Shown here in pieces: positions 27,181-29,725 of a stretch of 64,000 nt of DNA (the first letter of the stretch is position 1; each line of letters begins with the position of its first letter). The DNA comes from an uncultured Pseudothermotoga sp. Lineage in GTDB: Bacteria > Thermotogota > Thermotogae > Thermotogales > DSM-5069. Below the pieces are notes generated by a model that was not told where the DNA came from, searched no databases, and saw nothing but the letters and a program-made list of their open reading frames with translations. Position numbers and translations under genes: made by a program. The stretch covers positions 186,001 through 250,000 of the forward strand of contig CALKJI010000004.1 of the NCBI GenBank assembly GCA_937995655.1, given 5' to 3'.

Positions 27181-27217
27181 AAAGTTCAAAGATATTTTCG
27201 ATTGGACAGTAGCAAGG

Positions 27218-27247
27218 GGTGTGGCGGTGGAAGGCCACACCTTTTTT
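27218..27247 (+). terminator. intrinsic terminator of the GntP gene
   Basis: Perfect 8-bp stem GGTGTGGC / GCCACACC with an 8-nt loop, directly followed by TTTTTT. It lies 37 nt after the stop codon. Confidence 0.85.
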
Positions 27248-27618
27248 AAGGTGCCTTGTGTTGACAAAAGTCTTTGGATAATTATCGTATGTTCTGATGT
27301 ATCAAGAGCAATTTATTTTCAACCATGGTCCCATTTGTGAAAGGGGATTCTCGAAAAACTGTTTTGAGTCATTTCAGCCTAATGGTGGAAACCTTTCATT
27401 CGATCTTAGCTGAGCGTTACTACAAAGCTAGAAATTTCTAATCTTCGTGCAAAAACCGTTGGTGATATTTTCAGCAAATGGCCTTACATCTTCAACTCAA
27501 CTTAGTTATAAGGGAAAATAATCAATCAGCATAGCTTTGCAGATGAAATATAGTGGAATCTCTACAAGCAAAGAAAGTTGAAACAAGAGATTGCTAATTA
27601 AAAACCTTCTGAGAATAC
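27248..27618. other. intergenic stretch with no supported gene
   Basis: About 370 nt. A short plus-strand frame at 27325-27441 (MVPFVKGDSRKT... ending KARNF) reads protein-like but has no ribosome site and no family I recognise; it may be another gene fragment. A TTGACA occurs at about 27260 without a good -10 box. Confidence 0.3.
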
Positions 27619-27807
27619 TCATTTTTCACCGGCACTAAACGATTTTGTATAGGTGCAACAATATATTTTTCATCGGTTGTTTGTTCAAGACCTATCTGCC
27701 AGGAACTATATGAGACTCTGCCATTTTATGTTCTCATTGTTATGTAACTTGATAGAATCATGATAGGAATTAAAGTTGACGCGGCCAGAGCCTGATAAGT
27801 CGGCAAA
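27619..27807 (-). pseudogene. decayed beta-propeller repeat remnant (copy B)
   Basis: Minus-strand frames contain FADLSGSGRVNFNSYHDS, then IKLHNNENIKWQ, then SSWQIGLEQTTDEKYIVA and TKSFSAGEK before a stop at 27619, interrupted by at least two frameshifts. The order and wording match copy A at 25071-25255 (TTD-x-IVA ... TKS ... IKLDSNGN), so both derive from the same repeat family. Confidence 0.6.
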
Positions 27808-28189
27808 GTTTACTGGTAAGTGTGACAACCTTCGAAGTTTTTCTCTCATAGTGCAATACCACTATCATATTTTGCTAGGTATGTGTATATTGAGTGATTG
27901 CACTGTTTGTGTGGAGCAATATAATGTATCTTATATTGCACCAATTGAGGTGTGACGACCCCATTTTCCTTAGATCTATTTTTGCTGCTAGAGAAATCAT
28001 TATTTTAAATTGGCTCTTTGGTAATCTTAGTGGCCGTGGATTTCGCAGATCCAACAAAGTTCACCATGCGGGGTAAATGGTTCGAATGGTGAGTTTGAGC
28101 CCGTAGCATCAACTAAGTTTGCTACTTTTTTTGAGATCTGTGTGGTTATTGAGTGTATTAAAACCGTAAAATTCAAAAACCTTGTTAAG

Positions 28190-28240
28190 AAGCTTTGTCC
28201 AAGGATTTCAAACTTTGTCGAGCTTGTCGAGAATGTCGAA
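28190..28240. repeat. upstream copy of a direct repeat with 9-bp iterons
   Basis: The 22 nt at 28209-28230 are identical to 29471-29492, and similarity extends leftward to 28190 (about 42 nt in all). The core is a tandem of 9-mers: TTTGTCGAG (28214-28222), CTTGTCGAG (28223-28231), AATGTCGAA (28232-28240). The copy ends 37 nt before the ATPase start. Confidence 0.75.
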
Positions 28241-28277
28241 CAATTTTGTGATATAAAAAAACTATGGGGGGAGTTCA

Positions 28278-29438
28278 ATGAAGGATGAAAGATTGCTCAA
28301 GAGATTGGTCGATAAGCCGCTGAATAGGAACGAAACAGAGCTTTTTGTAGACAGGGGCGAGGAACTTTCGGCACTGGAAAAGATCCTCAAGTATTACGCT
28401 TTTGGAATCTTTGGCTTATGTGGTAGAACTGGTTCTGGGAAGACCACTTTGTTGAACATGTTGACTGAAGAGACACAAAAAATAGTTCGTATATCCATAA
28501 TTTATAGGGATAATTCAGATGCAATACTCTACAATTTACTCTATTCGCTTGCAGAACACTTTTTAAAAGACGATAGTAAAGAGATTCAAAAAATCTCGCA
28601 AAACGTAAAAGAATGGCTCTTTGAGGAAGTTTCTATAGTGAGAGGTTTTAGCTTGGGCCTATCTATGATGGCATCGGCGGACTTGAAGAGTAGTAAGGCA
28701 CGTGCGCCACGTTTCAACGTTTTCAAGGCACACGATTATCTTCAAAAGATGCTCGATGCTGCAAAGAAACATTACGGCAAGGTAAGTCTTTTGATAGATG
28801 AACTGGACAAAGAAAAAAAGGAGGATGTCATAAAGATTCTTGACTCGCTGAAACTTGAGCTTCAGCAAGAGGATGTTTTGACAATCGTCACGCTTCCACA
28901 AAGTATCTACAAAGAATACATCCATGATAGACTGAGGATGAACGGCTTTGGCAATCTGGAAAACATCATCAAAGACGTGGTATTCATAAGAGATCTTGAA
29001 AATCATCATGTCAAAGAAATGTTGATCAAAAGATTCAGCGAGAGTCTGGACTGGTTTGAAGATCTTTCAATACTGGATATGCTGGCTGACTTTTCAGATG
29101 GTAATCCTCGCGATGCCATCTGGATAGCTCAAAAGGTTGTTTTGGAAAATATATCAAAGAACCAACTTACAGTAAAAGATGCTATTCAGAGTATCCAAAA
29201 AATCTCCAAAGAACTGATTCGAACTATATCATTGACCGATCTTCAAACAAAGGCTTTGAAAATCCTGAGAGGGTTAACTGGATCCAGAGAACAATTTCTA
29301 ATCAAACTTGTAGAAAATAGTTTCGCTCGTACAACTGCTTACAGCATCTTCGATAAATTCCTTGAAATTGGTTTCATCGTTCCCAAAGAGAGCGGTTTCA
29401 AATTTAGTGGTAAGTTGTCATTTGTAGAAGAGTTGTGA
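28278..29438 (+). CDS. AAA+ ATPase with C-terminal winged helix, Orc1/Cdc6-like
   Basis: 386 aa. After FVDRGEELSALEKIL (the initial motif common to Orc1/Cdc6 and archaeal-type ATPases) comes Walker A GRTGSGKT at 49-56, Walker B SLLIDELDKE near 170-178, sensor 1 TIVTLPQS, and sensor 2 DGNPRDA near 274-280. The last 80 residues look like a winged helix (LTDLQTKALKILRGL ... FDKFLEIGFIVPK). The role is unknown: initiator-like, or a STAND/DExx ATPase of mobile DNA. ATG follows GGGGGGAG. The gene is flanked by matching iteron repeats, has no operon partner, and stands in a region of gene decay, all suggestive of transferred DNA. Confidence 0.75.
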   Translation: MKDERLLKRLVDKPLNRNETELFVDRGEELSALEKILKYYAFGIFGLCGRTGSGKTTLLNMLTEETQKIVRISIIYRDNSDAILYNLLYSLAEHFLKDDSKEIQKISQNVKEWLFEEVSIVRGFSLGLSMMASADLKSSKARAPRFNVFKAHDYLQKMLDAAKKHYGKVSLLIDELDKEKKEDVIKILDSLKLELQQEDVLTIVTLPQSIYKEYIHDRLRMNGFGNLENIIKDVVFIRDLENHHVKEMLIKRFSESLDWFEDLSILDMLADFSDGNPRDAIWIAQKVVLENISKNQLTVKDAIQSIQKISKELIRTISLTDLQTKALKILRGLTGSREQFLIKLVENSFARTTAYSIFDKFLEIGFIVPKESGFKFSGKLSFVEEL

Positions 29439-29450
29439 AGTAAAGTCATA

Positions 29451-29493
29451 AAGCTCTTGTTGAATCATCCCAAACTTTGTCGAGCTTGTCGAC
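29451..29493. repeat. downstream copy of the iteron-containing direct repeat
   Basis: Second copy, starting 12 nt after the ATPase stop. 29471-29492 is identical to 28209-28230; the left 20 nt are partly conserved (AAGCT, TTGT, AT at matching places). It holds two good 9-mers, TTTGTCGAG and CTTGTCGAC, and a degenerate third. Confidence 0.75.
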
Positions 29494-29624
29494 CAAGTCT
29501 GTTAGCAAAAATATAGAGCTGAGAGAATCACACGGGCAGGATAGTATCTGTTCACCAAAGCGATGCTAGGTTTATATGTGTACCTGACAGCTATTGATGG
29601 AATCGTTGCATGACCAAGGTGGCT

Positions 29625-29646
29625 TTTTGCACGTGTTAGTGCAAAA
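29625..29646. other. perfect inverted repeat
   Basis: TTTTGCAC and GTGCAAAA form an 8-bp stem with a 6-nt loop in the 287-nt gap between the ATPase and YkgJ-like genes. No T-run follows on either strand beyond the arm itself, so it may be an operator or a weak bidirectional terminator. Confidence 0.35.
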
Positions 29647-29725
29647 CATCGTTCAAAACAGGTTTTACTCAATTCTTAGAACTCTGAAAAGTGCGATTAA
29701 CAAATATCTGTCATGAATAAATACG

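Follow-up and report, generated by a model that had tools for sequence, protein, structure and literature searches.

An AAA+ winged-helix ATPase gene between direct iteron arrays: a probable one-gene mobile unit of Thermotogota and archaea

A block of about 1.3 kb, consisting of a repeat (R1), one AAA+/winged-helix ATPase gene and a second repeat (R2), spans positions 28195-29504 of the window, that is, of the whole 64,000-nucleotide stretch of DNA from an uncultured Pseudothermotoga sp. that we analysed. R1 and R2 are direct copies of an array of about 45 bp made of five iterons of 9-11 bp. From comparison with relatives, we propose that the block is probably a one-gene mobile unit, whose protein recognises the unit's own terminal direct repeats and which is excised by recombination between R1 and R2. 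What normally identifies a mobile element is its transposase or integrase; here ends, protein and movement would be linked, in bacteria and in archaea, despite the presence of neither.

Repeats and gene in the window

The locus comprises the following features:
28195 to 28242, + strand: R1, upstream iteron array of five units (repeat search, model score)
28252 to 28257, + strand: candidate -10 box TATAAA, just 3' of R1 (from the sequence and the flanks of relatives)
28266 to 28273, + strand: ribosome-binding site GGGGGGAG (sequence)
28278 to 29438, + strand: AAA+ ATPase gene, 386 aa, ATPase_2 (PF01637), C-terminal winged helix (ORF, Pfam, model)
28422 to 28448, + strand: Walker A GRTGSGKTT, residues 49-57 (alignment of the family)
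29238 to 29435, + strand: winged-helix region, residues 321-386 (model; flank comparison)
within the winged-helix region, + strand: recognition helix, residues 351-364 (RTTAYSIF...), covarying with the iteron (comparison)
29457 to 29504, + strand: R2, direct downstream copy of the iteron array, 18 nt 3' of the stop codon (repeat search, model score)

The direct repeat pair 28195-28237 / 29457-29499 covers 43 nt with 79% identity at a spacing of 1262 and includes an exact 22-bp core, CAAACTTTGTCGAGCTTGTCGA; by our own arithmetic, the chance expectation for an exact 22-mer common to two flanks of about 200 nt is about 2e-9. With the repeat model, R1 scored 53.5 and R2 30.9, compared with -18.5 for the best of 40 shuffles of the upstream flank. 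The units of R1 read, in order, TGTCCAAGG-ATTTCAAACTT-TGTCGAGCT-TGTCGAGAA-TGTCGAA, with units 1 and 2 worn, and intact units number three of five in R1 and two of five in R2. The window copy is an older, partly worn member of its family with an intact gene. At the place matching the candidate -10 box, most relatives have TATAAT in the flank comparison.

The initial annotation had reported an exact 22-bp repeat on both sides of one solitary ATPase gene, each copy built of tandem 9-mers. Repeat, core and units proved real, and the + strand has no ORF of at least 80 aa in 27181-28277 and 29439-29725. Its placement of the repeats on either side of the gene also stood, but the exact distances had to be revised: R1, 48 nt long, stops 35 nt short of the start codon, and R2 starts 18 nt after the stop. 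A whole-genome search found the repeat in the window's own genome at the R1 and R2 positions only, and a profile search of 61 genomes placed R near-exclusively next to the gene, with a few solo copies besides; the 42-bp unit is thus not an ordinary scattered repeat.

Further upstream, a 25-bp palindromic stretch with a GCAATATAATGTATCTTATATTGC core lies at 27916-27940. It is 100% conserved upstream of the next gene in two relatives (G001 and G003) and 96% conserved, at an unrelated place, in G006, and is probably an operator.

The ATPase and its relatives

The protein matches ATPase_2 (PF01637) with 37.3 bits against a gathering threshold of 33.2, and all 21 of 21 family members match at E<=0.001. 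Alignment of 21 relatives shows T51, G52, G54, K55 and T57 of Walker A to be invariant, and conservation of Walker A extends to the Walker B residues, a GNPRD motif and a sensor-1-like strand (SLP/TLP). The AlphaFold model (pLDDT 83.6) ends in a C-terminal winged helix, and its best solved-structure matches are archaeal ATPase_2 proteins and Cdc6/ORC (Foldseek, Cdc6 7tjh_I, E 4.5e-10, TM-score 0.48). Of the Orc1/Cdc6-like identity suggested earlier, the AAA+/winged-helix fold therefore holds in model and Foldseek comparison, but family membership does not, the score for TIGR02928 being 15.8 bits against a cut-off of 181.3. Profile and structure searches did find a winged helix, rather than an unrelated family devoid of such a DNA-binding domain, and the Pfam hits included no curated plasmid-Rep family. 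The gene evolves under purifying selection, with dN/dS values of 0.04-0.10 in 6 of 7 computable pairs; the remaining pair, near-identical and carrying little signal, gave 0.29. A label of anti-phage defence was rejected, since PADLOC hits were weak and scattered (best 8e-6) and no model hit more than 8 of the 21 members.

Matches occurred in 46 of 103 Thermotogota genomes, the weakest being fragments or distant ATPases, and strong matches in 2 of 196 related archaeal genomes. Named relatives come from Thermosipho, Pseudothermotoga, Fervidobacterium, Marinitoga, other Thermotogota and one Micrarchaeota bin. No relative was found in 72,556 plasmid records, 50,697 phage records and viral contigs, on which ground a phage or plasmid origin was rejected.

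No genome has more than one intact copy per repeat type, which gives no sign of multiplication inside a genome. Where two copies coexist (G001, G002, G026, G035 and Marinitoga lauensis, whose second gene is broken), there is one of each type; pairs in G283 and G287 match this pattern, and the four paralogues of the Micrarchaeota genome each have their own iteron. One intact copy per type would fit incompatibility and could also reflect small numbers.

Architecture of the repeats

The five units of R place TGTC at offsets 0, 9-10, 20, 29 and 38 in Thermotogota; archaeal R also has five units, at offsets 0, 9, 18-19, 32-33 and 41-42, and different iteron sequences. Of 30 related Thermotogota copies, 23 carry both repeats according to the repeat model, always in direct orientation, with a gap of 23-74 nt between R1 and the start codon and of 1-18 nt between the stop codon and R2. 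Copies found later, outside the definition of the pattern, had both repeats in 8 of 9 cases (the exception being L308), as did all three archaeal copies testable on both sides (L068, with 50 bp exact, L218 and L216). R1 is found at the promoter in bacteria (TATAAT) and in archaea (TTTAAATA) alike.

Several loci depart from the plain arrangement. At L205 (G028:C2:41174-41700) only a C-terminal gene remnant is left between two R copies, as in a decaying unit, and at L042 an insertion of about 6.2 kb near the 3' end of the gene parts it from an R2-like copy further downstream. Additional solo R copies occur near the unit in two sister genomes (L311, L312), one pair at matching sites with flanks 92.7% identical. 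In L199 (2222-5268, reverse-complement coordinates), from a genome without the family gene, two solo R copies flank a stretch of about 3 kb that contains two further genes for AAA-type ATPases. Finally, G001 and G002 have a conserved solo R (L203 2871-2915 / L204 2823-2869) some 130-160 nt before a cmr-like operon (type III-B CRISPR), a possible case of regulatory capture.

Covariation of iterons and recognition helices

The initial annotation had likened the 9-mers to binding sites of the gene's own product, and this idea gains support from covariation between iteron and recognition helix. KRTTAYS and its variants go with TGTCGA iterons, KRQTAYT, KRQTVYT and KRQTIYT helices with TGTCACA iterons, and the KRTTSYS helix with a TGTCGG iteron. 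In archaea, KSRSLIYKYL and KSRSVVYKYL helices go with the iteron TTTCACC: the L068 and L218 proteins are only 42% identical overall, yet have the helix KSRSxxYKYL and this iteron in common. Other archaeal paralogues of one genome have the distinct iterons TTCCC, ATTAAA and TGYCGTAA. We infer from these sequence pairings that the protein recognises its own terminal repeats; within Thermotogota the covariation is confounded with ancestry.

Copies in unlike neighbourhoods

Between copies at different places, similarity spans R1, gene and R2 and stops at or shortly past the repeats; among copies 95-97% identical but set in different flanks, it gives out no more than about 35 nt from the repeats. 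For example, G284 and G050 agree at 96.7% over -117..+1228 between immediate flanks that are unlike, and the G268/G274/G275 copies are 95% identical in shuffled or unlike neighbourhoods. The gene tree is at odds with rpoB: the T1 gene of G002 has 92% DNA identity to copies of another family, where rpoB identity is 69.8%. The gene has thus passed between bacterial families.

The upstream neighbour of the unit is often the gene of a DUF4143-like ATPase (L031, L033, L035). This gene bears TTATCGA palindromes at the 5' end and was apparently transferred jointly with the unit in G002; family names of neighbouring ATPases rest on motif reading. That this neighbour forms a parallel unit was rejected because its 3' side has no repeat, and its presumed empty site (L032) was rejected because the gene end is still there.

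The window's own site is empty in G001 and G003, with 102 and 201 bp between the 25-bp palindrome and the homology of the next gene, a comparison that is coarse rather than base-exact because both genomes are too diverged. R is absent there as well, so for the window copy the comparison does not support insertion at an R already in place.

Loss of the unit and recombination between repeats

A precise comparison comes from a sister pair. G042 has the unit between its flanks as R1, gene and R2, and G012, whose rpoB is 99.2% identical, has both flanks around one R that equals R2 of G042 except for the first base. The pair thus shows direct repeats when the site is occupied and one copy when it is empty. 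Loss in G012 is the simpler reading, because the outgroup G041 (rpoB 84.9%) has the unit at the matching site. G012 is also without most of the adjacent upstream gene, which marks the region as labile. A second case of a solo R is found in G001, at a place where G002 has the unit, next to a matching neighbour ATPase but with a different downstream flank. Together with the near-identical copies in unlike flanks, the single-R site supports the earlier suggestion of a mobile, excisable unit. The empty-site comparison it had called for succeeded at base level for G012 and G042 but only coarsely for the window's own site.

R1 and R2 also recombine and homogenise with each other. Agreement of non-core spacer bases within a locus was 0.86 for the TGTCGA type, compared with 0.53 when R2 was permuted (11 loci; 0/10,000), and 0.87 compared with 0.74 for the TGTCACA type (6 loci; P = 8e-4). 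R1 and R2 of G041 are identical (48/48) at the site it has in common with G042, where they differ, and for this reason an LTR-style insertion clock based on R1/R2 divergence was rejected. In L051, L053 and the G268/G274/G275 group, a promoter relic follows R2 and matches the promoter after R1; the sequence 5' of R1 is not duplicated in that way. Such terminal redundancy suits an inserted or recombined unit better than an operator pair. Excision itself could be incidental recombination of direct repeats.

Proposed mechanism and alternative readings

In the mechanism that we propose, the ORC/Cdc6-like AAA+ winged-helix ATPase, as the sole gene of the unit, would bind the R iterons. At R1, beside or over its own promoter, binding should regulate the gene. 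Recombination between R1 and R2 would remove the gene and leave one R, as observed in the sister species; a 1.3-kb circle of R plus gene should be set free at the same time. Comparison of copies does establish that the unit has reached new sites and genomes. Insertion may occur by recombination of the circle into a solo R; alternatively, the protein may recruit host replication or recombination enzymes. The plasmid records, phage records and viral contigs contained no circle or free form. The ATPase being the only gene between R1 and R2, the unit contains no recombinase gene, whether tyrosine or serine, and no DDE transposase gene; inverted terminal repeats are absent, R1 and R2 having the same orientation wherever both are present.

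A minimal integrative replicon, with R as origin and the protein as initiator, whose circle replicates and reintegrates at R in the manner of an iteron plasmid, is a tentative alternative that we hold to be somewhat unlikely. Its appeal lies in the ORC/Cdc6-like fold, the five-unit iterons adjoining the gene, the existence of solo R sites, and the orthogonal iterons of coexisting paralogues with at most one intact copy per type and genome, as expected of incompatibility. However, the extrachromosomal form is missing from the plasmid, phage and viral collections, the protein does not reach the Orc1/Cdc6 cut-off, and the Pfam hits offer no curated plasmid-Rep family. We regard as rather unlikely the broader proposal of a selfish, domain-spanning one-gene replicon, a circle of about 1.3 kb with origin array and initiator that inserts into, and leaves, chromosomal copies of its own origin with no recombinase involved, its orthogonal iteron types being incompatibility groups.

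Promoter-side R1 in both domains, purifying selection on the gene and the solo R before the cmr-like operon of G001 and G002 are also what an ordinary autoregulated chromosomal regulator could show, with R1 and R2 as operators of a repression loop, solo R as its regulon and plain horizontal transfer. This reading is unlikely: unit boundaries fall at or near the repeats amid unrelated flanks, homogenisation extends to spacer bases rather than core bases alone, promoter relics lie 3' of R2 in three lineages, and the majority of solo R sites share no particular gene neighbourhood. R could also be the end recognised by a recombinase, supplied in trans by the host or another element, that mobilises the unit as a passenger. 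This would agree with the unit's shuffled, variable neighbourhoods and its lack of a recombinase, but is improbable: R changes in step with the winged helix encoded in the unit, making the unit's protein its main reader, and the end repeats are direct, whereas DDE transposons have inverted ones.

Excision and recognition of its own ends by a one-gene mobile unit, the reading we prefer, would widen what minimally counts as a mobile element, point to a travel route for ORC/Cdc6-like initiators and their origins, and account for part of the numerous solo ATPase_2 genes of thermophiles that have had no explanation. For work on winged-helix specificity, the pairs of covarying helix and iteron are a ready system.

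Comparison with known systems

The open-access literature searched, PMC4158269 included, contained no precedent for a repeat-gene-repeat unit of this kind, and as far as that search goes the unit is new. The archaeal AAA+ ATPases of ATPase_2 (PDB 2qen, PAB2304, and 2fna, SSO1545) are alike in sequence family (21/21) and are the best structural matches; compared by description, they are not reported with cognate flanking iteron arrays or mobility in the literature searched. Orc1/Cdc6 with its ORB sites shares AAA+ plus winged helix, a GNPR sensor-2-like motif and, as predicted for the unit, repeat binding beside its own gene; in contrast, the unit's protein falls below the family cut-off, its gene has five 9-bp direct units on either side, and the unit is mobile. 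Iteron plasmids likewise have direct iterons adjoining the gene of a matching protein, whereas the unit has no plasmid form found, no known Rep family and a second array after the stop codon. Insertion sequences, REP-RAYT systems and MITEs resemble it in compactness, in repeats tied to one gene and in solo repeats, but the unit has no transposase, its ends are direct instead of inverted, and intact copies number at most one per type per genome. Integrated elements with att repeats (IME, integrative plasmids) have the same direct end repeats and single copy at the empty site; unlike them, the unit carries no integrase, and its repeat is the predicted binding array of its own cargo protein.
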